Source: Lachnospiraceae bacterium
GTDB lineage: Bacteria; Bacillota; Clostridia; Lachnospirales; Lachnospiraceae
Reading direction: 5' to 3'
Length of the DNA: 64,000 bases
Assembly: GCA_029224965.1 (NCBI GenBank)
Contig: JAQXVO010000020.1
Location: 152,546 to 216,545, forward strand
Shown here: positions 22,966-44,812 of the stretch, piece after piece
Layout: every line of letters starts with the position of its first letter
How positions within the stretch are numbered: position 1 is the first letter of the stretch
The notes under the pieces: model-generated
Told to the model about the DNA's origin: nothing
The model's input: the letters and a program-made list of their open reading frames with translations, nothing else
Databases searched by the model: none
Position numbers and translations under genes: made by a program

Positions 22966-25077
22966 TCAGTCCATCTTCTGAATCGAAGAAAAAAGATTCT
23001 GCCAGGAGGAATTCTCCCGGTAGAAGACGGCCGGTTTTCCGAGCGGGGCAGCCATACGGAATTCGCCGGGCCCATAGGTCTTCCCGTCAAAGAGGCCGAT
23101 CCAGCGCTCCCCATCCCTGGCAGGAAGATAGACCAGCCTGGAATCGGCGCCCTCTTCCATAACCGGTGCGACCAGAAGGTCCGGCCCCAGGAGATACTCC
23201 GTTTTCAGATCCCGGACATTGGGATCCTTTTCATAATGCAGAACCAGAGGCCGCATGCAGCCGATTCCTCTCTCATGGTTTTCTTCGACAATGGCTTGAA
23301 GATAGGGCTTTAAGTCCCTGTGGATCCGGGTCATCCGAGCGAAATGATTCATACCCTCTTCATCGTTATAAAACTGGTAATTTTCTTCGGGCCGGTTCCC
23401 CTCATGGGTCCGCATAACCGGAGAAAAGCAGGCGAATTCGGCCCAGCGCATGAAGAGCTCCCGGCTCCGGATATTGCCATAGGCCGAGGTATAGCCGCCG
23501 ATATCACTGTGAGACAGGCCATAGCCCGACATGGTCAGAGACAGAGCACCCGTCAGAGCGGAAGGCAGACCGTCATGCTCGGACCAGTCAACCGACTGGT
23601 CACCCTGCCACTGGAGGGCCGTGTAGGTCTGGGATCCCGTGGCTCCAGACCGCATGAAATAGAGAATCTGTCCGGACTTTCCGGCCTCCCGACAGGCTTC
23701 ATAGTTGCAGCGGGCCCATTCGGCCGGGAAGCGGTTGTGCCAGAGCTTCGGGTCCTCTCCGGATGCCGGGCAGCAGTCCGCAGGCACATATTCGCCGAAA
23801 TCCGCCATCCATCCGCTCAGGCCGAAGTCCAGAAGTTCCCGTTTAATGACGTCCTTATACCAGTTGAAGCCGCGTTCGGTCGACAGGTCCACCATGCCGA
23901 AATAAATCGATACCGAATTCATCCGGTAGACCTCTCCGGCCTGATTCAGAAGAAGAGCTCCGGCCTTCTTTCCTTCCTCATATAGCTTTCCGCCCTCTGC
24001 CAGGTAGGGATTGATATAGCCAAGGAAATGGATGCCCTCCTGGGCCCAGGCATGGATGGCATTAGGGAGGTCCGGATAGAGAGAAGGATCCCAGCGGAAA
24101 TCCCAGCGCAATCTTTTTCCGAAGGCCGGATCCATAAACTTTCCGCACCAGTCCTGGCAGAAGAGGCCGGCGGTCTTCACGCCATGGGCCAGGCTCTTCT
24201 TCGTCAGCTCCCGGACACGTTCTGTTCCGCCCTGAAGGCCAAGGATAGCCCCATTATAAACGAAATCCGGAAGCAGCATCTGCCTACCAAGAAGGTCCGT
24301 GAGTTTGATCAGGCAGTCTTCGAGACTCTGTCCCTCTCTGAAATAAAGCCTCTTCGGGCAGGCAAAGAAGGTCAGATCGTGATGGTCTGCATTTCGAAAA
24401 TCAAAATCCGCATAGGCCGTGCAGAAAGTGTGGAAATAATAATCCCTGCTGCTTAAGTAGGTCTGCTGGGGAAAATAGGTCGTATAATAGTCGCCGCCGT
24501 TTCCTCCGTCCGCGTCAGCCTTCTTCGTGATCTCGGTCGACTTGTCACGGCCGATGCCGGGCTCCGAGGTCCAGAGAGGATAATGACGGTGCCTCAGATT
24601 CAGATAGGAAAATTGCTCTCCGCCCCCATAGACCGCCTCGGATTCCTCTGCACAGATATGGAACTGAAAACGGTTATAGTCTATGGCCGGATTCTCCCGG
24701 AAGAAGGGAAGGAAGTCCACCGTGCAGGCATCCTCGGAAAGAAGGATGTCGAAATCCAGGCTGCTTTCATCCGGAAGGAGGTAGACGGCCCGATAGCCGG
24801 AAATCAGAGGTCCGGTCGCGGTCTTTGGTCCGAGTATGGTCTCCTCCTCTCTCCTTCTGGCTCTTTTCCGTTCCTCCTCATTCAGGAGACGGATGGACTG
24901 AAAAGACGGCTGAAGCCAGCCCTCCATCTGATCCTTCACGGTAAAGAAACCGCTTTTTACGGAGATATCTTCGTTTCCTTTTCCGATGGAAAAAAGGGGC
25001 CGGTCCGCCGTCTGGCGGAGGAGCGGCCCCTCTTCTGTTTCAATTAGAAATCCATCGGAAAGAATGGTTATTTTCAT
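22966..25077 (-). CDS. GH31 glycosidase with full sulfoquinovosidase signature
   Basis: A 703-residue cytosolic GH31 enzyme. The nucleophile Asp lies in GWMADFGEYVP (residue 426) and the acid/base Asp in WQGDQSVDW (493). From memory of E. coli YihQ, sulfonate recognition uses Gln288, Arg301, Trp304 and Tyr508. The matching motifs here are FCQDWCG (Q308), FGKRLRW (R322, W325) and SDIGGYT (Y529), so the sulfonate-binding set looks complete. The start at 25077 has AAAGGAT upstream; a longer frame lacks a site. It follows the EamA transporter and the sugar ABC importer. The likely role is releasing sulfoquinovose from sulfoquinovosyl glycerol or related glycosides. An ordinary alpha-glucosidase is the less likely alternative. 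Confidence 0.82.
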   Translation of the reverse strand: MKITILSDGFLIETEEGPLLRQTADRPLFSIGKGNEDISVKSGFFTVKDQMEGWLQPSFQSIRLLNEEERKRARRREEETILGPKTATGPLISGYRAVYLLPDESSLDFDILLSEDACTVDFLPFFRENPAIDYNRFQFHICAEESEAVYGGGEQFSYLNLRHRHYPLWTSEPGIGRDKSTEITKKADADGGNGGDYYTTYFPQQTYLSSRDYYFHTFCTAYADFDFRNADHHDLTFFACPKRLYFREGQSLEDCLIKLTDLLGRQMLLPDFVYNGAILGLQGGTERVRELTKKSLAHGVKTAGLFCQDWCGKFMDPAFGKRLRWDFRWDPSLYPDLPNAIHAWAQEGIHFLGYINPYLAEGGKLYEEGKKAGALLLNQAGEVYRMNSVSIYFGMVDLSTERGFNWYKDVIKRELLDFGLSGWMADFGEYVPADCCPASGEDPKLWHNRFPAEWARCNYEACREAGKSGQILYFMRSGATGSQTYTALQWQGDQSVDWSEHDGLPSALTGALSLTMSGYGLSHSDIGGYTSAYGNIRSRELFMRWAEFACFSPVMRTHEGNRPEENYQFYNDEEGMNHFARMTRIHRDLKPYLQAIVEENHERGIGCMRPLVLHYEKDPNVRDLKTEYLLGPDLLVAPVMEEGADSRLVYLPARDGERWIGLFDGKTYGPGEFRMAAPLGKPAVFYRENSSWQNLFSSIQKMD

Positions 25078-25132
25078 GGCAATTCCATCCTTTCGAATTC
25101 TATTTTCTTCAATCCGGTCTATATCTGGCAGC

Positions 25133-26053: not shown

Positions 26054-26059
26054 TTTCCA

Positions 26060-26902
26060 TCAACCCTTTACAGCACCGGCTGTCAGTCCGGCAATGATCT
26101 TCTCCTGGAAGACCATATAGATCACAATACTGGGAACCATGGCAATCACAATTGCCGCATACATGGATACATAGTCTGTCGAGAACTGGTTGGTGAAGTA
26201 GCGGATTCCGATCTGGATGGTCTTTGTTTCCGGAGAGGATGTTAAGAGGTTTGCATAAACAAATTCATTCCAGCAGGTCAGGAAGCAGAAGGTTGCAGCT
26301 GTTACAATGCCGGTCCGGATCAGTGGTAGGAAGATCTTGAAGAATCTTCCGAAGAAGCCGCAGCCATCTACATAGGCGGCCTCTTCCACTTCACCTGGGA
26401 AGGAATCCATGAAGCCCCGGATGATGACCGTCGATACCGGCAGATTGACTGCGGTATAGAGGATGATCAGGGCCAGGAGGGAGTCCAGGAGGTGAAGCTT
26501 CTGGAAGGTCATGAAGTAAGGAACCATCATGGCATTCAGAGGAACCATGATTCCGGAGGCAAAAAGCGCATAGATGATCTCTCGTCCGCGGAAACGGAAG
26601 CGGCTTAAGGCGTAGCTTGCCATCGTTGCAATGAAGACATTGAGAATCGTTGCGGAGAAGGCAACGATAATCGAGTTAATGATCATGTGTCCCAGATTGG
26701 CCTGGGTCCAGGCATGAACATAGTTGATCAGCTGAGGAATGGCCGGCCAGCTGAAGGGGCTGGCGATGTATTCCTTATTCGTCTTTAATGATGTCACAAA
26801 GAGCCAGAGCAGCGGAAACAGGGTATAGACCGCAAAGAAAATGATCAGGATCCATTTCAGGATTCTTGAGCCCAGGCTGCCGAATTGTTTTTTACCACTC
26901 AT
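26060..26902 (-). CDS. Sugar ABC transporter permease (MalG type), second system
   Basis: A 280-residue CUT1 permease. The start at 26902 has GAGGAGG 5 bp upstream; a longer frame would overlap the preceding gene. Six membrane segments are visible, as well as the EAA loop (GEVEEAAYVDGCGFFGRFFKI) and the C-terminal KIIAGLTAGAVKG. It is 10 bp after its MalF-type partner. The operon lacks an ATPase. Because it is coupled to an EamA exporter and a sulfoquinovosidase, uptake of sulfoquinovose glycosides is the favoured role. Confidence 0.88.
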   Translation of the reverse strand: MSGKKQFGSLGSRILKWILIIFFAVYTLFPLLWLFVTSLKTNKEYIASPFSWPAIPQLINYVHAWTQANLGHMIINSIIVAFSATILNVFIATMASYALSRFRFRGREIIYALFASGIMVPLNAMMVPYFMTFQKLHLLDSLLALIILYTAVNLPVSTVIIRGFMDSFPGEVEEAAYVDGCGFFGRFFKIFLPLIRTGIVTAATFCFLTCWNEFVYANLLTSSPETKTIQIGIRYFTNQFSTDYVSMYAAIVIAMVPSIVIYMVFQEKIIAGLTAGAVKG

Positions 26903-26912
26903 ATGAGCCTCC

Positions 26913-27794
26913 TCAATTTTCTTCGTCTGTCTTGATATGGGCGAAAATCGTCCGGATCGCAACAATCACGACAACACCTAACATAATGAGAACGACCGAA
27001 GATGCATTGGCTATGCCGTACTTATTGTTTCTCATCTTGTTGTAGAGATAGAGAACAATAACAGAGGTCTTGTTGGCCGGTCCGCCATTGGTCAGGAGGT
27101 AGATATTCTCGAAGGTTCTGAGTCCGAAGACCGCTGCCAGAAGGACGCAGGTCTGAATGGAGGACTTGATCATGGGAATGGTGATATAGAAATCGATCTG
27201 AAGCTCTGAGGCTCCGTCGATCCGGGCTGCCTCATAGTAGTCTTCCGGCACATTGGCGATACCGGCCATGATGATGGTCATGTAATAGCCGATGTAGAAA
27301 AGTCCGTAGATCAGAACACAGGGAAAGGCGGTCTTGGGATTTCCCAGCCAGTTGGTCGCGTATTTGCCGAGGCCGATGGCCTTTAAAATACCGTTTAAGA
27401 GACCGTAGTCACTGTTATAGACAGCGCCCCACATGGCTGCAAGAGCAACACCCGAAATAACCTGAGGGAGGAAATATACGGTACGGAAGAATTTCCATCC
27501 TCTCGGCTGCTTGGACAGGATCATGGCCATAAGAAGGGCCAGACCTACCTGAACGACGACTGCACAGACGGCCCAGATTACGTTGTTTCTCAGGCTGTGA
27601 ATAAAAACCGGATCCGAGAGGATCTTCTTATAGTTTTCAATTCCGTTAAAGACCGGAGCTGTAATTCCGTTCCATTCGGTGAAGCTTCGAACAATGACAT
27701 AGAACACCGGATAGATGAAGAACACTGCAAACAGAAAAACTGCCGGCAGAAGGAAGATACAGATACCGATCCTGGCTTCTTTGTTCAGTTTCAT
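26913..27794 (-). CDS. Sugar ABC transporter permease (MalF type), second system
   Basis: A 293-residue CUT1 permease with six membrane segments beginning ICIFLLPAVFLFAVFFIYPVF. The EAA loop reads DYYEAARIDGASELQ followed by TIPMIKSS. The start at 27794 has AAAGGGG upstream. It is separated from the binding-protein gene by a hairpin that should reduce permease expression relative to the binding protein. Confidence 0.9.
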   Translation of the reverse strand: MKLNKEARIGICIFLLPAVFLFAVFFIYPVFYVIVRSFTEWNGITAPVFNGIENYKKILSDPVFIHSLRNNVIWAVCAVVVQVGLALLMAMILSKQPRGWKFFRTVYFLPQVISGVALAAMWGAVYNSDYGLLNGILKAIGLGKYATNWLGNPKTAFPCVLIYGLFYIGYYMTIIMAGIANVPEDYYEAARIDGASELQIDFYITIPMIKSSIQTCVLLAAVFGLRTFENIYLLTNGGPANKTSVIVLYLYNKMRNNKYGIANASSVVLIMLGVVVIVAIRTIFAHIKTDEEN

Positions 27795-27881
27795 ATTTGA
27801 ATCCCCTTTGAAGTACTTGTAAACTGCCTTTCAATCGCTTAATCAACTGCTTTTGAACAGCAATTTTCGAATTTTCAGATA

Positions 27882-27913
27882 AAAAATGCCGGCTGCGGCA
27901 TTGGCAGCCGGCG
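27882..27913 (-). terminator. Attenuator between binding-protein and permease genes
   Basis: GCCGGCTGC and GCAGCCGGC (27888-27896 with 27904-27912) form a perfect stem followed on the minus strand by ATTTTTTA. Its place directly after the binding-protein stop, but inside the operon, suggests partial termination to keep the binding protein in excess. Confidence 0.85.
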
Positions 27914-27921
27914 TCATACTT

Positions 27922-29193
27922 TTATTCCTCGTTGTCAGCTTTCAGTGTCTCTACGAAAGTCTTGGCATCGATCGATCCGGAAAGGAAGGACTCCAGCTGC
28001 GGAGAAAGGTCATTTGCGCAGGTGGTAGATACGGAACTCTCGAAGGAAGGAATCAGAACCTTGGCACTGTCACGGAGCTTCAGAATCTCGCTGACATAGG
28101 CATTGTCAACGGTATTTTCCTTGGGAACAAAGACGGAACCGGAGGAATTGGAAAGCTCGGTCAGACGATCGGCATCGGTGACATAGGTCATGAATGCCTC
28201 GACGGCCTTCTGCTTTGCCTTATCTTTTACGGCACCGGAAAGAATGTAGGCCTGGGTGTACTGTATGATGGTATTGCCGGGGCCTGCAGAGAACTTCAGG
28301 TTGTCATAGACACCGTCAGCCGCATTCTGCTGAATGTTGGAAAGGATCCAGGTTCCATTGGTGTAGACTGCTGTCTCCTGGTTGAAGAAATGTGCGTTGA
28401 CATCCTTGGCCTGGGCGCCGATGGCATCGGAAGGAGCATAGCCGTAGACTTCCTTGAGCCAGTTGGCGGCATCGATAAAGTCATTCTCATTCCACTTTCC
28501 GGAAATGGCATCAGCACCGCCCTTCTCGCCAAGTGCATAGGTGTACCAGAGCATTGCAGTCCAGGCATTGGATGCTGTCATGAAGGATGCAGGTGTGGAA
28601 ACGCCGGAAGCCTTCAGCTTGTCGAAGGTCTCAATATATTCGTCTGTAGTGGTCGGAAGGTCTGTAATACCTGCCTTCTCAAGAAGAGAACCATTCCAGA
28701 TAACCGGAACAACGGCCGCTTCCCAGGGAAGTGCGTAGTTCTTGCCGTCGACCTGCTCGTTTTTCAGAACGCCGTCCGAATATTTGCTCTTCATATCATC
28801 ACCGGACAGGAAATCGGTCAGATCCAGAACCTTGCCCGACTGGGAATAAAGCTCTACATCCGCCTTGGTCTTTACCGAGAAGAGATCCGGTGCGTCTCCG
28901 GAGGAGATGCTGGTCCGGATATAATCGGCATAGGCGTCATAGTCCGTGTAGTCCTTGATTGTGATGTGGTATTTGCCTTCATTTTCCGAATTGAAGCCAT
29001 CGACAATCTTCTTGAATCCCTCTGCCTTGGAGTCTGTGCCAACCCAGATGCAGGGGAAAGTCAGATCGACTTCGCCGCTGCTGCTCGAGCTGTCTTTCGA
29101 CGAGCTGGAGCTCTTCTTCGATGAACCGCAGCCGGCAAACAAGGCCGCAACCATCGAAACCCCTAAAAGTGCTGCAAGAAGTTTCTTTCTCAT
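27922..29193 (-). CDS. Extracellular sugar-binding lipoprotein, second ABC system
   Basis: A 423-residue binding protein. The signal ends in the lipobox LFAGC with Cys about residue 21, followed by a Ser/Lys-rich linker (GSSKKSSSSSKDSSSSSGE) anchoring it outside the membrane. The body is a family 1 solute-binding fold (DAPDLFSVKTKADVELYSQSG, YALPWEAAVVPVIWN). The start has AAAAGGGGG. It is the first gene of the importer - EamA - GH31 operon. Its ligand is inferred, not shown, to be a sulfoquinovose-type glycoside. Confidence 0.88.
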   Translation of the reverse strand: MRKKLLAALLGVSMVAALFAGCGSSKKSSSSSKDSSSSSGEVDLTFPCIWVGTDSKAEGFKKIVDGFNSENEGKYHITIKDYTDYDAYADYIRTSISSGDAPDLFSVKTKADVELYSQSGKVLDLTDFLSGDDMKSKYSDGVLKNEQVDGKNYALPWEAAVVPVIWNGSLLEKAGITDLPTTTDEYIETFDKLKASGVSTPASFMTASNAWTAMLWYTYALGEKGGADAISGKWNENDFIDAANWLKEVYGYAPSDAIGAQAKDVNAHFFNQETAVYTNGTWILSNIQQNAADGVYDNLKFSAGPGNTIIQYTQAYILSGAVKDKAKQKAVEAFMTYVTDADRLTELSNSSGSVFVPKENTVDNAYVSEILKLRDSAKVLIPSFESSVSTTCANDLSPQLESFLSGSIDAKTFVETLKADNEE

Positions 29194-31653: not shown

Positions 31654-32901
31654 ATGGCAGGAAAAGACGGAATCAATATGCTGGATGTGAAGATCAGAAA
31701 CCGCTGCTCTATTCTGGAACTGATCTATCAATCCCGCCAGATCCCACGGAAGGATATTGCCAAGGCACTCGGGCTGACTCCGGCAGCGATCACACTCATT
31801 ACAAACGACCTGATCAAGGAAGGCATCCTGGTTGAAAAGGCAAAGAAGGAATCCCAGGCACGGGGACGAAGGGAGGTTCTCCTCGAAATCCAGGCCGAAA
31901 AGTTCAGTGTCATCGGCGTCAATATCACTCGGCACCATTATGAAATTCTCTGTACAGATCTATCAACGAAAGAGCTCTATCACAAGCGCGTCAGCACCAT
32001 AGAATTCCATTCGGATGCCAATCTCATCATGGATGCCATTGCAAAGACCATTGAAAAGGACATCCTCTCCTCTTCTGTTCTGAAGAAGAAGAAACTCTTA
32101 AGCATCGGTATTTCCACCCTTGGAATCGTTCAGACGGAGCTCGGCATCAGTCTGAATTCCTATGGCGTCTTCCATGGTAAGGCTGCCCTGAAGGACTTCT
32201 TTGAGAATCGTTTTTCCGTTCCGGTCATCGTCACCAATAATATCTGTGCCGATGCTCACGCTGAGGCTTTCCTGAAGAAGACTTCTGTTCAGAGCGGTTC
32301 TCTCCTTTTTATCAAATATGGACCGGGAATCGGATCTGCCATGATCCGGACCAGTGATTACTTCAACATTTATGACTATAAAGCCGTCCAGATTGGCCAC
32401 ACCATTACAGAGCCCTTCGGAAAGCCCTGTATCTGCGGCAACAGCGGCTGTCTGGAAACGGTTGTCAGCTATCCCAATGTCATAAGCGAACTCTATAACA
32501 TGATCAGTCCGGAGGCGACCCCGGAGCTCTATGAGGCCTGGAAGCATGTTCCCTTTAACCAGATGACTCTCAGGGATTCCGGCGAGGATCTGATGGAGCA
32601 CGTTTTCACAAGCTATGACAAAGGCAACGTCGTGGTCGGCCAGGAAATCCGCCGGATTCTCAGCAATATGGCCGTTGCCATCGAGAATGCCATCACTCTT
32701 TTAAATCCCCAGCGGGTCATCCTCTACGGCGGTGCCTTCCAGCACCGGAGATTCCGCGATGCCCTGCTGTCGCAGCTGTCAGTCTTCACGAGATCTCAGA
32801 AGGTCGGTATTTCCGAGTTCAATATGAAACTGGATGCCCTGGGCCCTGTCACTGCAGCAATTTCACTCTTCTTCCTGAACGGCGGACGGATTCCGGATTA
32901 G
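31654..32901 (+). CDS. ROK-family transcriptional regulator (NagC/XylR type)
   Basis: A 415-residue regulator. The N-terminal winged helix reads SILELIYQSRQIPRKDIAKALG and LTPAAITLITNDLIKEGIL (about residues 15-55). The ROK sugar-kinase-like domain follows, with the zinc motif CICGNSGCLETVV near residue 265 and a C-terminal PQRVILYGGAF. No other DNA-binding regulator is present in the 23-45 kb region, so it is the best candidate to control the two minus-strand sulfoquinovose operons. The start has AAGGGGGG upstream. Confidence 0.9.
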   Translation: MAGKDGINMLDVKIRNRCSILELIYQSRQIPRKDIAKALGLTPAAITLITNDLIKEGILVEKAKKESQARGRREVLLEIQAEKFSVIGVNITRHHYEILCTDLSTKELYHKRVSTIEFHSDANLIMDAIAKTIEKDILSSSVLKKKKLLSIGISTLGIVQTELGISLNSYGVFHGKAALKDFFENRFSVPVIVTNNICADAHAEAFLKKTSVQSGSLLFIKYGPGIGSAMIRTSDYFNIYDYKAVQIGHTITEPFGKPCICGNSGCLETVVSYPNVISELYNMISPEATPELYEAWKHVPFNQMTLRDSGEDLMEHVFTSYDKGNVVVGQEIRRILSNMAVAIENAITLLNPQRVILYGGAFQHRRFRDALLSQLSVFTRSQKVGISEFNMKLDALGPVTAAISLFFLNGGRIPD

Positions 32902-32954: not shown

Positions 32955-32990
32955 GAGGCGCCTGAGAAATTTCTCAGACGCCTCATTTTG
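32955..32990 (+). terminator. Terminator of the ROK gene
   Basis: GAGGCG, GAGAAATTTCTC and CGCCTC form a long near-perfect hairpin (32955-32984) followed by ATTTTG, between two convergent genes. Confidence 0.8.
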
Positions 32991-33105: not shown

Positions 33106-34167
33106 TCAGACCATATAGCCGCGGATAACCTGTACAAGGTCATCATAGCCGCCCAGGAACTGGTTCAGGGTAGTGCGGAAACCGCCATAATTTACAAATT
33201 CCGACGGCTTCATACCATCTTCGCGGAAGGACTTGGCAAATTCCGGAATCTTTCTGAGCTCCTTCATGATTTCTTCCGGCACCGGATCATCAATCCGGGA
33301 CTTGACCTCAATGTCACAGGCCTCCAGGCGCTTCCACCACTTGTAGTTGATGGTTTGGGCCAGATCGCCGCCGATCAGCTGGCTCCAGTGATAATGATTG
33401 CGGTTGGCCGCAGAAAGCAGACGGGTCCGGTAGCCTCTCTCCTGATAGATCCGGTAGGCTTCCTTGATGACGGCTACGCCAGCCCATTCCAGCGCCTCGG
33501 GGTTTACAATCAGACCGGTTTCATTGCAGTACTTCTTCAGCCAGTCATCGGTCCGGCCGATCATAATGGTGCAGACCGGTCCCATATTCTCCGTCGGAAG
33601 GCCTTCGGCCTCCCGGCGCTTCAGTCCCCGCTCGACGGCTTCTGCTACTGCAACTGCCTGGGCAACCGTAAAGGAAACGGTCGCATTGGTCGAGGCTCCC
33701 CGATAGGTTGCTTCTTCAATGGCCCGTATGCCGGCCTCTGATGCTGGGATCTTGATCATCATGTTTTCGCCCAGGGAATTTAAGTGCATGGCCTGCTCGA
33801 CCATCTTCGATGCATTCCGGTAATATTTGGCATTGACCTGAATGGAGAGACGGCCTTTCTTTCCCTTATACTCCTCAAATTTCGGAAGCAGCTTCTTACT
33901 CCGGAGTGCTCCGACCTCATCGATCAGAGCCCAGGTAATCTCATCCTCGGTTGCTTCCGGCATATCTCTGATCAGCTTTTTTATCTCCGGCTCCCAGAGA
34001 TCCATCTCTTCTTTTACTACTGATCCGACAATGATGGGATTGGAGGTTGCCCCGACGATTCCTCGCTCAATGCCGTAATTCAGTTCCTCTTCTCCGCAGG
34101 AATCCATCCAGAGATCGGTCTGCGGGAATTTCCTAACACTTTCTGCAAGCTTTCCTAACTTTGCCAT
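33106..34167 (-). CDS. Transaldolase-family protein (large type)
   Basis: A 353-residue Schiff-base aldolase-fold protein. The N-terminal TDLWMDSCGE carries the catalytic Asp (about residue 22), GATSNPIIV the substrate loop, and MMIKIPASEAGI the Schiff-base Lys (about 139). STNATVSFTVAQAVAV supplies the usual Thr/Asn region. It is the last gene of the dehydrogenase - transketolase - RpiB - transaldolase operon. It could interconvert the sugar phosphates made by the transketolase, or cleave 6-deoxy-6-sulfofructose as in the sulfo-transaldolase pathway. The sequence alone does not separate these roles. Confidence 0.83.
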   Translation of the reverse strand: MAKLGKLAESVRKFPQTDLWMDSCGEEELNYGIERGIVGATSNPIIVGSVVKEEMDLWEPEIKKLIRDMPEATEDEITWALIDEVGALRSKKLLPKFEEYKGKKGRLSIQVNAKYYRNASKMVEQAMHLNSLGENMMIKIPASEAGIRAIEEATYRGASTNATVSFTVAQAVAVAEAVERGLKRREAEGLPTENMGPVCTIMIGRTDDWLKKYCNETGLIVNPEALEWAGVAVIKEAYRIYQERGYRTRLLSAANRNHYHWSQLIGGDLAQTINYKWWKRLEACDIEVKSRIDDPVPEEIMKELRKIPEFAKSFREDGMKPSEFVNYGGFRTTLNQFLGGYDDLVQVIRGYMV

Positions 34168-35701: not shown

Positions 35702-36649
35702 TTACTTCATCCCGATAGCAAGCTTTGCAGCATTTACAATATCCTTTGCTCTGAGCCCGTATTTATCCATCAGATAATCCGTCTTTCCGACCTCACCGAA
35801 GTGATCAGTGACGCCGACCCGCTTCATGGGAACCGGATGGTTTTCGATCAGATTTTCCGCAACGGCACTGCCAAGTCCGCCGATAATTGAATGATTCTCA
35901 GCGGTAACAACGGCGCCGGTCTTTCTTGCACTCTCCAGAACCATATCCGTATCCAATGGCTTTACGGTATGGATATTGATGACATCTGCCTCAACGCCCT
36001 GCTTCTCCAACTCTTCTGCCGCCTTCATGGCCTCTGCCACCTCGATGCCGCTGGCAAAGATCGAGACGTCTTTTCCGTCCCGAAGCTTCTTTCCCTTTCC
36101 AAGAGTGAAGCTCTCTCCATCCTCCCAGATCTTTATGGCATTTCTTCGAAGGAGCCGAATGTAGACCGGTCCGTCGTGGTCGAGAATCTGCGGAAATACA
36201 GCCTTGAGCTGGGCCGAATCCACCGGCTCGAAAATCACCATGCCGGGAATATTCCGCATGATGGAGACATCCTCAAAGCTCATATGGGTACCGCCGTTCA
36301 TTTCCGCGGTTACGCCGGGATCCGAGCCCATCATCTTGACATTGAGTCCGGCATAGGAAACGGACAGGGTCACCTGGTCGCAGCAGCGCCGAGTTGCAAA
36401 GGGTGTAAAGGTATGGGTAAAGGGAATCTTTCCCATGGCATTCATGCCTGCCGCAACACCGATCATATTGGCTTCCTGGATGCCGCAGTCTATGGTCCGC
36501 TTGCCATCGAACTCGGCTGTAAAGCGCTTGGTTCCGCCGGCATTGGAGAGATCGGCTTCAAGGATGACGATCCGGGGATCCTTCTTTGCATATTCAATCA
36601 GGCAGTCGACGTAGGTCTCGCGCAGCCATCTGTCTTCCAGTTCAAACAT
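35702..36649 (-). CDS. Transketolase, C-terminal subunit
   Basis: A 315-residue subunit of a split transketolase with the pyrimidine-binding and C-terminal domains. ERFTAEFD-like and IDCGIQEANMIGVAAGMN place the conserved Glu that activates thiamine diphosphate, PFTHTFTPFATRRCCDQV gives the substrate loop, and VKPLDTDMV and AENHSIIGGLGSAVAE mark the C-terminal domain. Its start overlaps the N-terminal subunit by 8 bp. In the proposed pathway the pair removes C2 units from 6-deoxy-6-sulfofructose and then from sulfoerythrulose, giving pentose phosphate and sulfoacetaldehyde. Ordinary pentose phosphate activity is the alternative. Confidence 0.9.
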   Translation of the reverse strand: MFELEDRWLRETYVDCLIEYAKKDPRIVILEADLSNAGGTKRFTAEFDGKRTIDCGIQEANMIGVAAGMNAMGKIPFTHTFTPFATRRCCDQVTLSVSYAGLNVKMMGSDPGVTAEMNGGTHMSFEDVSIMRNIPGMVIFEPVDSAQLKAVFPQILDHDGPVYIRLLRRNAIKIWEDGESFTLGKGKKLRDGKDVSIFASGIEVAEAMKAAEELEKQGVEADVINIHTVKPLDTDMVLESARKTGAVVTAENHSIIGGLGSAVAENLIENHPVPMKRVGVTDHFGEVGKTDYLMDKYGLRAKDIVNAAKLAIGMK

Positions 36650-37475
36650 CCTTTTCCGCCTCCTTCATCTCTTCCAGCGCCTGCCGGGTGAGTTCCTCGG
36701 TAATATTGTTGTCATTGTGGCAGGAGACCTTGTTTTCCCAGTGGGAAGCACCCTTGCCCTTGATGGTATTTAAGATGATCATATGGGGTCTGCCCTGGAT
36801 CTTTTTGGCATTGTCGATAGCCAGGGAAATGGCCCGGCAGTCATGGCCGTCCACGACCTGAACATGCCAGTTGAAGGATTTCCACTTTTCATCCAGGGGA
36901 TAGAGACCGTTGATCTCTTCAATGGTGCCGTCAATCTGCATCTTGTTATAGTCGGTAAAGGCAATCAGATTGTCGAGCTTTCTCGATGCACCGAGCAGAG
37001 CGGCTTCCCAGATCTGTCCCTCCTGCGATTCTCCGTCACCGATAATGGAATAGACCCTAATATCGCGCCGGTCCATCTTTGCCGCCAGGGCCATGCCGAC
37101 CGCTGCCGAGAAGCCCTGGCCCAGGGATCCGGTTGACATGTCGATTCCGGTCGTCAGCTTCCGGTCGCAATGGCTGGGAAGGTGGGTTCCCGGCTGGTTT
37201 AAGGTCATAAGCTCGCTTTCGGGGAAATAGCCCTTCAGAGCCAGGGTAGCATAGACAGCCGGTCCGCCGTGGCCCTTGGATAGAACGAAGCGGTCGCGGT
37301 CCTCCCAGTCGGGATTCTTCGGATCCACCCGCATGGCATCAAAATAGAGAACGCTCATGACCTCTGCCAGGTCCAGCGATCCTCCGATATGACCGAAGCC
37401 GCGGTGGCCGATGGTCTTCATGGTCAGCTCGCGGATAGTCATTGCTTTCTTCTGTAAGTCTCTGTACTTGTCCAT
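36642..37475 (-). CDS. Transketolase, N-terminal subunit
   Basis: A 277-residue thiamine diphosphate-binding subunit. RDRFVLSKGHGGPAVYA and PGTHLPSHCDR are the family's substrate-binding His regions, GSLGQGFSAAVGMA follows, and the GDGESQEGQIWEA...TDYNKMQIDG stretch (about residues 147-183) is the GDG-to-Asn diphosphate/Mg motif. The start has AAAGGACTG. It is directly downstream of the iron alcohol dehydrogenase gene in the same operon. Confidence 0.92.
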   Translation of the reverse strand: MDKYRDLQKKAMTIRELTMKTIGHRGFGHIGGSLDLAEVMSVLYFDAMRVDPKNPDWEDRDRFVLSKGHGGPAVYATLALKGYFPESELMTLNQPGTHLPSHCDRKLTTGIDMSTGSLGQGFSAAVGMALAAKMDRRDIRVYSIIGDGESQEGQIWEAALLGASRKLDNLIAFTDYNKMQIDGTIEEINGLYPLDEKWKSFNWHVQVVDGHDCRAISLAIDNAKKIQGRPHMIILNTIKGKGASHWENKVSCHNDNNITEELTRQALEEMKEAEKDV

Positions 37476-37588: not shown

Positions 37589-38716
37589 TCAGCGGAAGGA
37601 ATTGTACATATCCCGCAGGATCTCATCCGTAATCTCAACCGGATTATTGAGCATATTGGGGTGATGGCTGGTCTGAACCAGGGTCTCGACCTCTTCATCG
37701 GTCAGGCTGAAGTCCTTAAGATCCATGCGGAGGCCGATATCTTTCTTCAGTTCCGTGATGGCATCCGCCATATCGAGCATGTCCTTATAGCCCAGCTCTC
37801 TGGCAAAGGTATTGATCCGCTCTCCGGTCTCGCCTTCCGCCTTTGCATTGACACGGGCGAAATAATCCAGTGTCAGTCCGCAGGCTTCGCCGTGAGGAAT
37901 GCGATAGAGATTGGTCAGAGGGAAGGAGCAGGCATGAGAACTGGTCGTCTTCGGCAGAGTGAAGGCCATGCCGGCGATGACCGAGGCTTCCGCCATCTTC
38001 TCTCTGGCTTCCCGGTCCTCTCCGTTTTCATAGGCCCGGCGGAGATACTGAAAAACCAGGCGGCTGGCATGCAATGCCAGTGCATCGCAGATAGGCTGAT
38101 GGCCTTTGGACCAGAAGCCTTCGACGGCATGGCAGAGAACATCGATTCCGCAGGATGCGGTCTGTTTTTTGGGAAGACTGTAGGTGAGCTCCGGATCGAT
38201 CAGAGCGATGGCCGGATAGAAAAGATCGTTATTGATAGGGCCCTTCTTTCCTTTTGCATGGTTGGAAAGAACAGATACACAGGTGACCTCCGAACCGGTG
38301 CCGGCCGTTGTCGGCAAAGCGATGATCGGGATGTGTTTATCGGGAAGCGGAACTCCCGTCATATGATATTTCTCGATGGAATCATTGGTAAAGCAGACAA
38401 CGGAAGCGCTCTTGGCGCAGTCCATGGAAGAACCGCCGCCCAAGGCTACAATAAATTCGGCTCCGGTCTTACGGATGACATCGGCGCAGGCATCAACCTC
38501 GCCGACCTCCGGATTGGGAGAGATCTGGCTGTAGACAGCGATCAGAAGGCCCTTACTGTCCTTTACGATCTGATCTGCCAGACCGTTCTGCGCGAAGAAG
38601 GGATCCGATACCAGGATGCCCTTTTTTAAGCCCAGCTCCGCTGCGACATCCGGCAGTGTCTTCCGGACCCCCTCGCCGAAACGGATGTTCACCGGTTCCG
38701 TATAAAACCAATTCAT
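37589..38716 (-). CDS. Iron-containing alcohol dehydrogenase (candidate sulfoacetaldehyde reductase)
   Basis: A 375-residue group III dehydrogenase. NAD-binding motifs GGGSSMDCAK and LPTTAGTGSEVT are followed by metal ligands in GIDVLCHAVEGFW (Asp and His), SHACSFPLTN (His) and RIPHGEACG (His). I chose the ATG at 38716 (GAGGGG upstream) over one 27 bp earlier. As first gene of the operon with split transketolase and an RpiB-like isomerase, it fits the last step of the sulfo-transketolase pathway, reduction of sulfoacetaldehyde to isethionate; iron-dependent enzymes of this kind are known from taurine degraders. Other short aldehydes are possible substrates. Confidence 0.88.
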   Translation of the reverse strand: MNWFYTEPVNIRFGEGVRKTLPDVAAELGLKKGILVSDPFFAQNGLADQIVKDSKGLLIAVYSQISPNPEVGEVDACADVIRKTGAEFIVALGGGSSMDCAKSASVVCFTNDSIEKYHMTGVPLPDKHIPIIALPTTAGTGSEVTCVSVLSNHAKGKKGPINNDLFYPAIALIDPELTYSLPKKQTASCGIDVLCHAVEGFWSKGHQPICDALALHASRLVFQYLRRAYENGEDREAREKMAEASVIAGMAFTLPKTTSSHACSFPLTNLYRIPHGEACGLTLDYFARVNAKAEGETGERINTFARELGYKDMLDMADAITELKKDIGLRMDLKDFSLTDEEVETLVQTSHHPNMLNNPVEITDEILRDMYNSFR

Positions 38717-38833
38717 GAAAAGTCCCCTCACTTTCTCTTTCACAGGTTTTCTTTTTCCCCTTTTCCCCAGGATTTTTTATCTTTTGATGAACGGATTTTT
38801 TTCTCCTGGGCTTTTTAGAATTTCTGTATATAT

Positions 38834-38855: not shown

Positions 38856-38858
38856 TCT

Positions 38859-38887: not shown

Positions 38888-38982
38888 GGCAAAAATGGCC
38901 GTTTTTCGAGATATTTTTCAGCAGTTTTCAAAACATTTTCGCTTTTGATTAAGAGTTTTTAAATAATGCTAATTTTTCAGAC

Positions 38983-39026
38983 AAAAAAGGCAGCCGGATG
39001 AACTTACAGGTTTCATCCGACTGCCC
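38983..39026 (-). terminator. Terminator of the GH31/symporter/isomerase operon
   Basis: On the minus strand GGCAGTCGGATGAA pairs with TTCATCCGGCTGCC and is followed by TTTTTTG, just after the isomerase stop at 39070. It separates the two sulfoquinovose operons. Confidence 0.85.
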
Positions 39027-39069
39027 TATATTTCAAGAATAAACAGAAAACTCAGCTTTAAATATCCCT

Positions 39070-40413
39070 TCAGGTAAAAATTTCAACCGGGATATTGAGC
39101 TCATGGCCCAGGATTTCCAGCTCCTTTGCCACATTTCCGTAGATCACGACGTAATGAGGCTCCCAGCCTTCCTCTATGGTCTGATAGACGAAGTCCTTGG
39201 CATTGTGGCCCGTCTTTACGACTACCGAAGTGCCGTAGAACTGCTTGGGCTTATCCAGAGCTTCGCCCGGTGCGATCAGGAAGCGGAACTTTCCATCCGG
39301 ATCCTTGCCGATCCGGAAGATGGTGACTTCCTTGCAGGATCTGCAGCCGAATTCCAGGGTTGGTCCGATATGACGGTTGCAGTGCTCTCCGATCAGGGCT
39401 CCGGTATCTGTCCGTGCCAGACTGCATGCCGCCATGCCGCAGTGCCAAAAGGTTACGGTTCCCTCCTTGTCATCCAGGGAAACCGGATCTCCGAAGAAGG
39501 AAGGTCCGCCGGTCAGCTCCTGACCGACATACATGGAAAGGGCTCCGTAGGCATCGACCTCACAGGCTGCCGGAATTCCCAGGTCATTCAGGATTCCGAG
39601 AACCGTGCAGACCGGAGTTCCGAATTCGGTGAAGAAATCCGGCCAGCAGCGGGATGCCAGAGCTCCGATACCATTTTCATCGACATAGTCCTTGTAGGCC
39701 TTATAGAGGCGGGCGAAATCCATGCGGTTCTTTTCCGGTGTCTGTTCCAGGCCGACCGTACGGTTTTCGGCATCTTCGAGATAGGTCTGTATTTCTTCCT
39801 CGCTGAAGGATTTTGCCTTCTCAATTAATTGTCTTGCCTCGATACATTCGAGGTCCACACCGAAAGCGGTCCGCATTTCTCCGTCCAGGGCACGTCCGAA
39901 GCCGAAGCCCTGGGGCGTATGGCCGATGGAGGCCATTTTCAGATGGCGGAGGTCAAAGCGGACATGTGCAGCGCGGATGGCTGCTCCGATGGTCTTCTTC
40001 ACCTCCTCTTCGTCCGGGGCGCCGAAGATGTAGTCCAGGGGCTCCTTTCGAAACTGGCGGTAGGTATTGGCCGCCGAATAGGCGCCTGTCAGGGAGTTCA
40101 GACGGAGACGGGTGCCGTCGATGGCCGGCTCGCGCAGGGTCCAGAGAAGGACGGGACAGTTGAATCGGGCCAGAACCTCTGTCGCGTAGGCCGCATTGGC
40201 AAAGGTGATGTTCTGAAGAATAATCAGATCCGGATTGATGGTATCCAGAAAGGCCTTCAGCTTATCGATTCCGAGCAGCATCTCCTCGGGGCTCTTGACA
40301 TTGTCACAGAGAGAGTTCAGGAGAGCCTTGGACTCTTCAAATTTCTGTTCGGCGCTGACCAGCTCGTAGGTCGGGACGCCGATGGGAATATAGGCGACTT
40401 CAAATTTCTTCAT
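39070..40413 (-). CDS. L-fucose/L-arabinose isomerase-fold sugar isomerase (candidate SQ isomerase)
   Basis: A 447-residue protein of the FucI/AraA superfamily, which isomerises aldoses to ketoses with Mn2+. The C-terminal domain shows the metal-site pattern PAACEVDAYGALSMYV, ELTGGPSFFGDPVSLD and TFWHCGMAACSLA. The N-terminal half has IGVPTYELVSAEQ and ILQNITFANAAYATEVLARF. It is about 100 residues shorter than FucI itself. With a sulfoquinovosidase-like enzyme and symporter in the same operon, conversion of sulfoquinovose to 6-deoxy-6-sulfofructose is the favoured role. The start has GTGAGGAAAAC upstream. Confidence 0.82.
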   Translation of the reverse strand: MKKFEVAYIPIGVPTYELVSAEQKFEESKALLNSLCDNVKSPEEMLLGIDKLKAFLDTINPDLIILQNITFANAAYATEVLARFNCPVLLWTLREPAIDGTRLRLNSLTGAYSAANTYRQFRKEPLDYIFGAPDEEEVKKTIGAAIRAAHVRFDLRHLKMASIGHTPQGFGFGRALDGEMRTAFGVDLECIEARQLIEKAKSFSEEEIQTYLEDAENRTVGLEQTPEKNRMDFARLYKAYKDYVDENGIGALASRCWPDFFTEFGTPVCTVLGILNDLGIPAACEVDAYGALSMYVGQELTGGPSFFGDPVSLDDKEGTVTFWHCGMAACSLARTDTGALIGEHCNRHIGPTLEFGCRSCKEVTIFRIGKDPDGKFRFLIAPGEALDKPKQFYGTSVVVKTGHNAKDFVYQTIEEGWEPHYVVIYGNVAKELEILGHELNIPVEIFT

Positions 40414-40433
40414 ATGTTTTCCTCACTTTCCGC

Positions 40434-41186
40434 TTAATATTTCAGTTCCTTGTTTTCTCCGATGATGCCGGGGAAGGCGCCCTGGCGGATCAGGGGCTCT
40501 CGGTCAGGATGTGCGATGACCCATTTATTTCTCTGAAGAAGGAGTTGTCCTTCCGGGTCGTTCTTCCATAAAGAAGGCATCGGATTCATTTCTTCCGCCG
40601 GAGCAGAATCTCTTGCATCCGAAGTTCGAAGATAAGGATTCTTCCTCTTTTCCTCCTCCGTAAGCGGGGTGTTTGTGCCTTTGGGCAGAATCACAATGCC
40701 TTTGAATCCCCGATCGCATACCCGAAGCGGGGATAAGTGCAGGGTCGTCTGATACATCTCAATCGCCGTTCCCTTAGGGACGAAAAAGACTTTGGCATCT
40801 CGATTATCAAAGTGATTGTCTTTGATTTCCCAACTGTGACCAAGAACCAGCATGAAATCCGTAACAGCAATATTAATCTCTGATCCTTTATGGTATTCAA
40901 ATCCGTTATAGGTGGTATTTCTACCATTGCAGTAACCAATCTGGATCGGCATGCCTCCATACAGGATCGACTGGATCTCCTTTCGAATCGAAAATTTTTC
41001 CATCTCGGGAACCGATGCGACATAGACATTGCCTTGTTCCGGTATATCTGTCCGATCCTCCATGTAGGAAATCAGATCCGAGAAATCATAACCTGTCACG
41101 ATCCTGCCATAACTCAGAAAAATCTCTTCTGAAACATGGTGTATCGGTACCGTATTTACTTCATTCAAATGTTGTAATATATCCAT
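40434..41186 (-). CDS. DUF4867-family protein
   Basis: A 250-residue soluble protein that I assign to DUF4867. GGMPIQIGYCNGRNTTYNGFEYHKGSEINIAVTDF, VLGHSWEIKDNHFD and AKVFFVPKGTAIEMYQTTLHLSPL read as a cupin-like barrel with His, Glu and Asp residues that could bind metal. No activity is known to me. It lies between the GPH symporter and the sugar isomerase, starting 3 bp after the symporter stop. The ATG at 41186 was preferred to the GTG one codon earlier. An accessory role such as sugar anomer or isomer handling would fit, but this is a guess. Confidence 0.7.
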   Translation of the reverse strand: MDILQHLNEVNTVPIHHVSEEIFLSYGRIVTGYDFSDLISYMEDRTDIPEQGNVYVASVPEMEKFSIRKEIQSILYGGMPIQIGYCNGRNTTYNGFEYHKGSEINIAVTDFMLVLGHSWEIKDNHFDNRDAKVFFVPKGTAIEMYQTTLHLSPLRVCDRGFKGIVILPKGTNTPLTEEEKRKNPYLRTSDARDSAPAEEMNPMPSLWKNDPEGQLLLQRNKWVIAHPDREPLIRQGAFPGIIGENKELKY

Positions 41187-41189
41187 CAC

Positions 41190-42692: not shown

Positions 42693-42745
42693 CTCTTACC
42701 CCCTATCGTTGCTGCAAGCCCTTTTCCCTCTTACGAGCTTACAAG

Positions 42746-44812
42746 TCACAAGTCCCTGTTTTCATTCAAGAACAGCTTACGAATCCGATCTCCTTCCTTC
42801 GAATCTCTGACGAAGACCGGTATCCGCTCAAGAAGCGGTGCCCGAATGTGACAGGTTCCGCCTTCATATTCTTCCCCTGTCCAGAGATCGATCCAATGAT
42901 CCTTTGGCAAACGGACCTCTCTTTCTTCCTGTCCTTCTGTTAGAATCGGTGCAACAAGAAGATCCCTCCCCAGGAGATATTCTGTCTTTTCGTCATAGCA
43001 GAAGTCCTCATCATAATGGTAAAAAAGAGGTCGCATCAGAGGCCACCCATATCTTTCTGTCTCTTCCATGCAATGATCCAAATAAGAGGACAAAAGCAGG
43101 TGCCAGCGGCTGGTTTTTGCCAAAACAGACAGCAATTCCTCATCGTCATCGAACTGGACGTCATTGGCCGGCTGATTGCCTTCATGGGTTCGAAGCAAAG
43201 GACTGAAAGCGTTCATTTCTTCCCACCGGATCAAAAGCTCTTTTGTCCTTCTCATCTGCATCAGCGTCGTATAACCGCCGGCATCAGAATGCGTCATACC
43301 GAAGCCGCTCATTGCCAGAGATAAGGTTGCCGGTATCACTGACGGCAAGCCGTCATCCACAGACCAGTCCACATGCTGGTCTCCGGTCCACATCATCATG
43401 GAATTTCGGATGCTGTCTGTTGACCCGGCCCGGGTAAAGAAAAAAACGCGCCCTATATTTCCTGTTTCCGAAATTGCCTCCTGATTCATTCTGGCCCAGA
43501 TCGTCGGCCATTCATTATGGCGGTCCATCGGATCGGATCCGTCATACAGGACACAGTCCAGGGGCAGGTATTCCCCGAAATCCGCCATCCATCCCTTCAT
43601 GCCGATCCCGATCATATTTTCTTTGATCAGGTTCTTATACCAGGCATAAGCATCCGGATTGGTAAAATCCACCATAGCCGCCGGAAAGGTTGTGATCTTC
43701 ACCAGATAATCCTTCCCGTCCTTATCCTTGACGCAATAGCCTCTTTTAGATGCCTCCTTGTAAAGGTCCTTTTCCAAGGCAATAAAAGGATTGATATAAC
43801 CGAGGAAAGCAATCCCCTCTTCCTCCCATTTTTGAATGTGCTCTTTCAAATCCGGATACTGCCCGTCCGGCCCATCATCGGCTTTCCAGTTCCACATGAC
43901 CTGGTAGCCAAAACCCGTCCGGCGGCAGCCGCACCAGTCCTGAGACCAGATTCCGGCAATGGTTACTCCATGGGCCCGGGCCCTCCGGATTTTTTCATCA
44001 ATCTTTTGGACACCTTCCTGTACCGCCAGAATGACACCTCGATTGATCCATTCCGGAAGGCTCTTCTGTCTGCCGAGGAGAGCGGATAATTTCATGGAAA
44101 GATCCGGAAAACAGTCTGTTCCCTCTGCTTCTGCCAGATAGAAATCCGGCAGCTCCTCAAGAAGAAGTCTTGTGGTCTTCCCTTCCCGGAAGTCAAATTC
44201 CGCATATCGTTTGCAATTCACATGGACAAAATAGCCTTGGCTTGAGACAAAGGTCGGTTGCGCATAATAGGATTCATAAGCCGAAAAGGGCATGACATGA
44301 TTTGGATCTCTTCCGAGAATTTTCTCCCGGATCAGTTTCCTTCCAATCCGTCTGGCATTTTGATGTTCCGCTACGAAGATACGTACCTTTTCTCCCTTCA
44401 GATTCCATCGAGCATAGGTCTCGCCGCAGCCATAGATCCGTTCCTTGGGATCCGCAGGCAATGTCAAAAGGAAACGGATACCGTAACCATCCGGAAAGCC
44501 CGACTCGTTTTTTCTCCTGTTTTCTGCTGTTCTTTCTTCTGTCGTTCCATCCCCGGTTTCTGCCGTAAAATACAGATGACAGATTCCGTTCTTTTCGCCC
44601 GTCAGCCATTCCTTGTGAAGCCGATAACAATATCTTCCGGAAGAATCCCGGAAGGAAAAGGTATCCTCTTTCTGACGAGTCAATTGCATCTCATGGGACT
44701 GTTTTCTTTTATAGCGAAAGCTTCCATGACTCATGGTAAATTGATCCCGGCCGATTGCTATGGATAAACCAAGGCCGCTGATTACTTGTTCTAAAAAATC
44801 TGATCCCCTCAT
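42746..44812 (-). CDS. YihQ-like GH31 glycosidase with altered sulfonate site
   Basis: A 688-residue cytosolic GH31 enzyme that resembles E. coli YihQ over most of its length. The nucleophile Asp is in GWMADFGEYLP (411), the acid/base Asp in WTGDQHVDW (478) and the Tyr of SDAGGYTT (514) is kept. In the sulfonate-binding motif, WSQDWCG (Q291) and VMWNWK (W307) are kept, but the position of YihQ Arg301 is Gln304 (FGYQVMW). The start at 44812 has AAAAGGAAG upstream; a GTG 18 bp earlier is less likely. It heads the operon with the GPH symporter, DUF4867 and isomerase genes. It may act on a sulfoquinovoside with a changed pocket or on another glycoside. Confidence 0.83.
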   Translation of the reverse strand: MRGSDFLEQVISGLGLSIAIGRDQFTMSHGSFRYKRKQSHEMQLTRQKEDTFSFRDSSGRYCYRLHKEWLTGEKNGICHLYFTAETGDGTTEERTAENRRKNESGFPDGYGIRFLLTLPADPKERIYGCGETYARWNLKGEKVRIFVAEHQNARRIGRKLIREKILGRDPNHVMPFSAYESYYAQPTFVSSQGYFVHVNCKRYAEFDFREGKTTRLLLEELPDFYLAEAEGTDCFPDLSMKLSALLGRQKSLPEWINRGVILAVQEGVQKIDEKIRRARAHGVTIAGIWSQDWCGCRRTGFGYQVMWNWKADDGPDGQYPDLKEHIQKWEEEGIAFLGYINPFIALEKDLYKEASKRGYCVKDKDGKDYLVKITTFPAAMVDFTNPDAYAWYKNLIKENMIGIGMKGWMADFGEYLPLDCVLYDGSDPMDRHNEWPTIWARMNQEAISETGNIGRVFFFTRAGSTDSIRNSMMMWTGDQHVDWSVDDGLPSVIPATLSLAMSGFGMTHSDAGGYTTLMQMRRTKELLIRWEEMNAFSPLLRTHEGNQPANDVQFDDDEELLSVLAKTSRWHLLLSSYLDHCMEETERYGWPLMRPLFYHYDEDFCYDEKTEYLLGRDLLVAPILTEGQEEREVRLPKDHWIDLWTGEEYEGGTCHIRAPLLERIPVFVRDSKEGDRIRKLFLNENRDL

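Follow-up and report, generated by a model that had tools for sequence, protein, structure and literature searches.

A predicted bifurcated sulfoquinovose pathway with a mosaic gene build in a Lachnospiraceae genome

Sulfoquinovose (SQ) is a major plant organosulfur compound, and the isethionate made from it feeds hydrogen sulfide producers in guts and rumen, as described in those parts of two reports cited here (PMC11659671, PMC13219744). Here we report on a gene region in a 64,000-nucleotide stretch of Lachnospiraceae bacterium (assembly GCA_029224965.1, contig JAQXVO010000020.1, positions 152,546 to 216,545; "the window") that most probably, at a rough probability of 0.8, belongs to the published bifurcated sulfo-transketolase/transaldolase (sulfo-TK/TAL) type, with front genes most like those of sulfo-transaldolase (sulfo-TAL) clusters. 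It is predicted to convert SQ mainly to isethionate, with a smaller branch leading to a C3 sulfonate. The pathway itself is already published and is not new; the novel aspects are the mosaic build of the region and the presence of two non-equivalent pairs of importer and glycoside hydrolase of family GH31. Pfam and NCBIfam scans of the window recovered every gene that a first-pass annotation of this DNA had listed, at the coordinates given below.

The pathway core

The genes expected of the core are the following.

39070..40413, minus strand: predicted SQ isomerase of SftI/SqvD type (SftI), with a fucose-isomerase fold, 417 bits to NF048012 (cut-off 700)
37589..38743, minus strand: iron alcohol dehydrogenase (Fe-ADH, PF00465), predicted sulfoacetaldehyde reductase, first gene of operon B
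36642..37475, minus strand: SqwG, N-terminal subunit of the predicted sulfofructose (SF) transketolase, PF00456 189 bits, 67% identical to the copy in locus L055
35702..36649, minus strand: SqwH, C-terminal subunit of the same enzyme, with R10, A37, D110 and R168, 71% identical to L055
35127..35609, minus strand: SqwI, RpiB-like predicted 4-deoxy-4-sulfoerythrose isomerase, PF02502 154 bits, 68% identical to L055
34266..34961, minus strand: TAL1, predicted SF transaldolase (SftT), 324 bits to the Bacillus megaterium enzyme BmSF-TAL (8bc3)
33106..34167, minus strand: TAL2, a second transaldolase-fold enzyme with a D-Q-K triad, predicted class I aldolase for fructose 6-phosphate or a related substrate

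Comparison loci (L numbers) were found by a contig scan with an alignment of seven SqwH proteins, the best 80 of 454 being named; they are contig pieces of at most 21 kb, in which absences may be cut-offs, and L054 and L055 are near-copies. SqwG, SqwH and SqwI were found together by tblastn in 50 of the 80. The closest locus, with the same gene order, is L047, from the metagenome-assembled genome Lachnospiraceae bacterium SUG1708. Among characterised clusters, the protein-search and gene-order comparison that the first-pass annotation had called for shows a resemblance in order and identities to that of Faecalicatena contorta (L055), with 61% identity for SftI, 73% each for TAL1 and TAL2, and 60% for the EamA transporter, whose L055 copy comes after TAL2.

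The four SqwH residues are four letters of the RAFDR signature published for sulfo-type transketolases in PMC11659671, in the part cited here (the F was left unchecked). In the ordinary transketolase subunit of this genome (contig C33) the same positions read RAHR, with His in place of Asp. The window thus has a two-subunit transketolase with sulfo-type head-group residues, together with genes for an SQ isomerase, the RpiB-like SqwI and a candidate sulfoacetaldehyde reductase, the last assigned from its fold and its position. TAL1 matches the solved SF transaldolase of B. megaterium at 324 bits, the next protein reaching 166 bits; it retains the D-E-K triad and the W-A-R head-group residues, and it stands beside SqwG, SqwH and SqwI, the combination by which a bifurcated cluster is recognised. 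The earlier proposal that the region turns SQ into isethionate by a sulfo-TK pathway therefore appears well supported by the sulfo-type SqwGH, the SftI-family isomerase, the RpiB-like SqwI and the Fe-ADH. As a plain sulfo-TK pathway it stands in its core and falls short in scope: the type is the bifurcated one already published, and the SF-transaldolase-like TAL1 leads us to predict a C3 sulfonate as well.

Several observations weigh against this assignment. The SqwH Asp is found in all 80 locus rows (57 RADR, 15 RSDR, 6 RCDR, 1 KADR and 1 RGDR), although SqwG, SqwH and SqwI occur together in only 50 loci; because it is also present where the other sulfo genes were unseen, it supports a sulfo-type assignment and is no proof by itself. 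SftI matches the SQ isomerase model NF048012 over its full length at a score below the curated cut-off. The Fe-ADH is 31-39% identical to the copies of most of the closer sulfo-TK loci (39% to that of L055). The cluster yielded no sulfolactaldehyde (SLA) reductase; in the 80%-complete genome the best candidate is 32% identical to YihU, and a dihydroxyacetone (DHA) kinase was not found there. The solute-binding protein of the ABC importer is 24% identical to that of L055, and among 43 solved sequences it had no match that is by name an SQ-binding protein. A shared operator was not found in the intergenic regions; the dyads that this search returned sit just 3' of a DAHP synthase gene and of SftI and look like terminators.

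Other results bear on the same genes. SftI matched no other NCBIfam model at E 0.001 and nothing in a search against solved structures. Model scores and gene trees led us to reject an ordinary pentose isomerase as the identity of SftI and ordinary alpha-glucosidases as that of the GH31 proteins, the groupings that the first-pass annotation had named as grounds for abandoning its reading. The Fe-ADH is 83% identical to the copy in L048 and 72% to that in L049, and lies in the tree outside the branch found in F. contorta. The YihU candidate is the one strong NAD_binding_2 protein in the genome.

The second transaldolase

TAL1 and TAL2 both belong to the TAL_FSA family. The triad of TAL2 is D-Q-K, as in FsaA, and so departs from the D-E-K of TalB. 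It is seen in the window copy and in 25 of 26 homologues from sulfo-TK loci, and Gln110 is conserved in more than 97% of the 120 homologues listed. A separate observation concerns L057, a sulfo-TK locus without SftT, whose TAL2 homologue (positions 11419-12579, 40% identical) has lost the catalytic Lys, the Gln and the phosphate-site Arg residues and is perhaps a dead or repurposed copy.

The distribution of the gene follows that of SftT. SftT occurs in 22 of the 80 loci of the sulfo-TK scan and TAL2 in all 22, none of which has a YihU-like reductase; TAL2 is found without SftT in four loci (L057, L061, L066 and L112). In the sulfo-TAL loci, SftT and the YihU-like reductase are each present in 14 of 14 and TAL2 in none. 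An aldehyde dehydrogenase query, for which its own sequence served as control, gave no hit at E 1e-20 in sulfo-TK or sulfo-TAL loci and a single weak one (L121) at 1e-5. In the cited part of PMC11659671, Borusak et al. proposed a fructose 6-phosphate (F6P) aldolase that passes glyceraldehyde 3-phosphate across the bifurcation, an idea that they connected with the genes for glycerol dehydrogenase and DHA kinase in that cluster. Relatives of the L055 glycerol dehydrogenase and DHA kinase, which we named by their place in the published order, without a domain scan, occur in L049, L050, L052, L054, L055 and L062, all with TAL2. The co-occurrence counts for SftT and TAL2 fit the proposal of Borusak et al.

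TAL2 might instead be an ordinary transaldolase serving a pentose phosphate cycle that recycles xylulose 5-phosphate, as its fold and the retention of both phosphate-site Arg residues would allow. We regard this as unlikely: the catalytic Glu is replaced by Gln, the genome already holds a transketolase-transaldolase pair on contig C33, and two relatives in other genomes lie in inositol-type clusters, where an aldolase would be expected. These relatives are among seven TAL2 loci fetched after a search in which 13 of 392 genomes of the order had the gene. Inositol-catabolism-type neighbours number five in L204 (IolA-, IolB-, IolD-, IolE- and IolC-like) and three in L205. A sulfo-type cluster surrounds the gene in L201, and L203 has a thiamine-diphosphate enzyme only. 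None of the neighbour types searched for was seen in L202 or L207, and L206 is too short to tell. The D-Q-K family in L204 and L205 is possibly a class I replacement for the IolJ aldolase.

Because SftT is accompanied by TAL2, and a YihU-like reductase is absent, in the sulfo-TK loci seen here, the proposed cross-feeding of glyceraldehyde 3-phosphate could be tested with two enzymes.

A mosaic front end

The front genes upstream of SftI form a distinct block.

42746..44830, minus strand: GH31b, predicted sulfo-sugar glycosidase of the YihQ family (motif QQQWY), opening operon A, NF007746 713 bits
41190..42692, minus strand: GPH-family symporter, predicted importer of sulfonated sugar, PF13347 232 bits, 24% identical to YihO
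40434..41189, minus strand: SftX-like DUF4867 cupin, PF16161 243 bits, PDB 9gyy 237 bits
40434..45154, no strand: block of DUF4867, GPH and GH31b with its upstream region, bounded at both ends by a drop in identity to L047

The four metal-ligand residues of DUF4867 named in the cited part of PMC11968277 are aligned with 9gyy. For material on the sulfo-TAL side, a GH31b search covering 392 genomes of the order gave matches in 33; from these we fetched the 16 others with an identity of 53% or more, seven from the window's family and nine from other families of the order. Fourteen of them (L169-L182) look like sulfo-TAL clusters, since each carries SftT and SftI along with a YihU-like reductase. 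L183 is a 5.7-kb contig with GPH and GH31 only, and L184 has a GPH-like stretch beside its GH31.

In gene trees, the window's DUF4867 (support 99), SftI (98), GPH (99) and GH31b (98) fall with the sulfo-TAL rows, DUF4867 and SftI nesting inside them. TAL1 groups with the sulfo-TK rows, which its tree splits from the sulfo-TAL rows at support 94, and the nearest rows of the ROK regulator, EamA, Fe-ADH, permease 1 and GH31a are likewise from sulfo-TK loci, including all five nearest to ROK; for EamA, Fe-ADH and permease 1, sulfo-TAL rows were unavailable for comparison. The comparison with L047 divides the region in the same place. Protein identity is 95-100% except for GH31b (78%), GPH (88%) and DUF4867 (78%). 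In 250-base steps, nucleotide identity is 0.60-0.85 across a 4.7-kb block from about 40.5 to 45.25 kb, with breakpoints near 40.5 and 45.15 kb; it is 0.82-0.96 on the left flank (0.82-0.88 only around the gap between SftI and Fe-ADH) and 0.92-0.96 on the right. The non-coding stretch upstream of GH31b shows the drop as well. GC content is 0.454 for DUF4867, 0.447 for GPH and 0.487 for GH31b, the other cluster genes lying at 0.480-0.555.

These data fit a front cassette that would have been exchanged, although the edge drops and GC content give no date for such an event. Some points count the other way. Long-branch warnings attach to the trees of GPH, EamA and the permease, GC separates the block incompletely (0.487 for GH31b and 0.480 for permease 1), and two sulfo-TK loci (L049, L051) lie near the sulfo-TAL rows in the SftI tree. 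The sulfo-TAL affinity of SftI itself would be older or weaker, given its position outside the block and its 97% identity to the L047 copy. That the block was never exchanged and has simply evolved faster under relaxed or diversifying selection is a reading we take seriously without favouring it; the window and L047 copies are mutual nearest rows in all three trees, as it would predict, while the sharp drop in identity at both edges, including in non-coding DNA, and the lower GC of DUF4867 and GPH tell against it.

Two GH31 enzymes and two importers

The second import route, with its own GH31 enzyme, is encoded at the other end of the region.

27922..29193, minus strand: solute-binding protein of the ABC importer, PF01547, first gene of operon C
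26913..27794, minus strand: ABC importer permease 1, PF00528, used for a gene tree
26060..26965, minus strand: ABC importer permease 2, PF00528
25133..26053, minus strand: EamA/DMT transporter, predicted sulfonate exporter, PF00892, 60% identical to the L055 copy
22966..25077, minus strand: GH31a, predicted sulfoquinovosidase with motif QQRWY, NF007746 786 bits

The gene layout bears out the earlier statement that there are two import routes, each with a GH31 enzyme. The combination is less unusual than had been thought: two GH31 genes with GPH in a sulfo-TK locus also occur in the L047 contig, where the GH31a copy (94% identical) lies further along, and in L071 and L074. The ligand of the solute-binding protein is assigned from context, because of the two results given above for this protein; it is 41-61% identical to those of sulfo-TK loci L050, L060, L062, L067-L069, L072 and L088. 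No ATPase gene was seen among the importer genes in the Pfam scans.

Both GH31 proteins exceed the 553-bit cut-off of NF007746 (NCBIfam name PRK10426 alpha-glucosidase), which we take to be the YihQ model, and both retain the catalytic Asp pair. At YihQ positions 262, 288, 301, 304 and 508, YihQ and GH31a read QQRWY and GH31b reads QQQWY. GH31a, at 665 bits to 8r56 and 607 to YihQ (5aed), thus has all the residues of a YihQ-type sulfoquinovosidase. GH31b, 46% identical to YihQ, has Gln in place of Arg301, the sulfonate-binding residue, and this tells against a simple sulfoquinovosidase role in spite of its model score. The earlier description of two YihQ-like enzymes therefore holds for GH31a and for the family of both; GH31b is no plain YihQ.

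The difference is a consistent one. QQQWY is present in all 120 GH31b homologues listed (the best 120 of 2007 over threshold), and 27 further columns, two of them gap positions, separate the Arg and Gln groups. In a 45-row tree the Arg-301 proteins form one clade of 17 rows (support 98) and the Gln-301 proteins are the rest. Residue and importer are also associated. In 42 rows of comparison loci (L184, L185, YihQ and the window kept apart, and five Arg rows from the whole-genome stretches L037-L040 and L043 outside the count), Arg rows have the ABC importer only in 13 cases, GPH only in two and neither in one, and Gln rows have GPH only in 17, both in three, neither in six and ABC only in none (Fisher 3e-7, which treats related rows as independent). 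Among the Gln rows, four have EQQWY and four QQQWF. The two Arg rows with GPH, L071 and L074, also have a Gln-type GH31 adjoining GPH, and the window and the L047 contig each hold both pairs. Escherichia coli, outside the counted set, is an exception in pairing GPH with an Arg301 enzyme. The association is unreplicated, because the residue has a single main change on the tree.

What GH31b acts on can be read in three ways. It may well be, at somewhat less than even odds, an ordinary sulfoquinovosidase, with Gln301 as a neutral replacement and a redundant second pair. The residues it shares with YihQ (both catalytic Asp, Q262, Q288, W304 and Y508, at 46% identity overall) and the Gln-type GH31 of the 14 sulfo-TAL loci are consistent with this; Gln in every listed homologue, the 27 separating columns and the confinement of R301 to one well-supported clade point away from it, as does the Arg found in alignments of both YihQ and Eubacterium rectale SftG (6pnr), a solved structure matched by GH31a and GH31b. 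SftG is an assayed sulfoquinovosidase according to the cited part of PMC11968277.

A non-sulfonated alpha-glycoside as the substrate of GH31b and GPH, which would then merely adjoin the SQ genes, seems improbable to us. Pairs of GPH and GH31 occur in alpha-xyloside operons, GH31b has Gln for the YihQ Arg301, the DUF4867-GPH-GH31b block diverges on its own, and L184 has a Gln-type relative with no sulfoglycolytic gene in 12 kb besides the GPH-like stretch. Set against these are the SftT, SftI and YihU-like reductase genes in 14 of the 16 Gln-type loci fetched (all except L183 and L184) and the occurrence of the Gln type as the GH31 of four Thermotogota sulfo-TK loci.

Our tentative suggestion is that Gln-type GH31b could represent a second class of sulfo-glycosidase without the canonical Arg, matched to GPH and acting on a different sulfoquinovoside, in a cassette that moves between sulfo-TAL and sulfo-TK clusters, so that the organism would eat two forms of sulfolipid sugar by two channels. 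No report of Gln-301 GH31 enzymes was found in the literature searched; an analogous group with an altered residue is published for GH188, in the part of PMC11465081 cited here. If Gln-301 enzymes are indeed a separate specificity class, yihQ surveys may be lumping two functions together, and the entry enzyme in a set of sulfo-TAL clusters would be a candidate only.

Two observations made along the way concern related enzymes. The Thermotogota loci (L084, L093, L098 and L102) contain SqwG, SqwH and SqwI with a Gln-301 GH31 and are candidate sulfo-TK clusters outside the Firmicutes. The YihQ-like GH31 of L185 (9129-11138) reads QRHCQ at the five motif positions, has none of the searched sulfoglycolytic genes within 20 kb, and probably has another specificity.

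Predicted route

The route below, with its reactions, substrates, transport directions and regulation, is a prediction from gene content, signature residues, gene trees and co-occurrence. Sulfoquinovosides or free SQ would enter by the ABC importer and be cut by GH31a, or by the GPH symporter and be cut by GH31b. SftI would convert SQ to SF, from which SqwGH may twice transfer a C2 unit to glyceraldehyde 3-phosphate, SqwI acting between the two transfers, to give xylulose 5-phosphate and sulfoacetaldehyde; the Fe-ADH would reduce the latter to isethionate and EamA export it. In parallel, SftT would pass a C3 unit to glyceraldehyde 3-phosphate, forming F6P and SLA. TAL2 probably splits F6P, so that the transketolase branch would regain glyceraldehyde 3-phosphate, a step on which Borusak et al. 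had speculated. A phosphoketolase encoded in the genome (850-aa frame) could also split xylulose 5-phosphate into glyceraldehyde 3-phosphate and acetyl phosphate, though this way of closing the route is read from genome content only; in the literature searched, three papers mention sulfoquinovose together with phosphoketolase.

Operon layout and neighbouring genes

The region appears to comprise three minus-strand operons, as had been proposed: A, GH31b-GPH-DUF4867-SftI (44830-39070); B, Fe-ADH-SqwG-SqwH-SqwI-TAL1-TAL2 (38743-33106); and C, solute-binding protein-permease 1-permease 2-EamA-GH31a (29193-22966). Promoter-like sites precede all three, 40-124 bases upstream, and a terminator-like stem follows TAL2; the window holds 26 such sites and 27 such stems, with 16.6 +/- 3.9 and 18.1 +/- 4.1 in shuffles.

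44898-44870, minus strand: promoter-like site of operon A, 10/12 matches
38887-38859, minus strand: promoter-like site of operon B, 11/12 matches
32955..32984, minus strand: terminator-like hairpin with a 13-bp stem, 3' of operon B (TAL2)
31654..32901, plus strand: ROK regulator, predicted to control the cluster, PF00480
29345-29317, minus strand: promoter-like site of operon C, 9/12 matches

The GH31a frame (22966-25221) opens at 25221. Its start is probably Met49, near 25077, which removes an overlap with EamA; in the L047 genome the frame of the GH31a copy is open only from residue 39. Between ROK and operon C lies a gene for a 632-aa PnrA-like protein (29435-31333, minus strand), absent from the first-pass list. 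We rejected it as part of the cluster and regard it as a bystander, since it has matches in 42 of 120 family genomes (its own included) and a paralogue in the window. The two PnrA-like (Bmp) paralogues, of 661 aa (17873-19858) and 632 aa, are both on the minus strand, and their N-terminal part has no Pfam match. Rfam and tRNA scans gave no matches.

Elsewhere in the window, a type I restriction system occupies 56191-62466 on the minus strand. HsdR lies at 56191-59499, a short gene resembling HsdS at 59628-60350, a gene for a tyrosine recombinase at 60262-61260 and a further HsdS gene at 61282-62466. Imperfect inverted repeats of 20 bp (59968/62580) and 18 bp (61281/62467) suggest a switchable specificity gene.

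Comparison with known systems

The region is most like the bifurcated cluster of Faecalicatena sp. DSM22707 which, in the part of PMC11659671 cited here, shares with it SqwG, SqwH, SqwI, SftT and a second D-Q-K transaldolase in similar order, as well as a DMT permease, a repressor, an ABC importer and an SQ isomerase; the SLA reductase candidates of DSM22707 lie elsewhere in its genome. From SQ, Faecalicatena makes mainly isethionate with small amounts of C3 sulfonates (same source). DSM22707 has a GH188 sulfoquinovosidase candidate, a glycerol dehydrogenase and a DHA kinase; the window differs in its two GH31 enzymes, its GPH, DUF4867 beside SftI and an Fe-ADH of another branch, with no DHA kinase found.

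The Caproiciproducens cluster, as given in the cited part of PMC13219744, shares the sulfo-TK genes and sftT without sftR or sftD, and strain KNHs216 makes isethionate from SQ. Its genomes are described there as lacking YihQ and SqgA, whereas the window has two YihQ-family enzymes. With sulfo-TAL (sulfo-SFT) clusters, namely the E. rectale type in the cited part of PMC11968277 and L169-L182, the window has in common GH31, DUF4867, SftI and SftT, and with L169-L182 also a Gln-type GH31, joined in some of them by a GPH of the same family; no SqwGH was found in these sulfo-TAL clusters, and L169-L182 have a YihU-like reductase beside SftT. Finally, the E. coli yih cluster, of the sulfo-Embden-Meyerhof-Parnas type, shares a GPH and GH31 front end with the window, but joins its GPH to an Arg-301 enzyme and has an SF kinase and aldolase in place of the transketolase.

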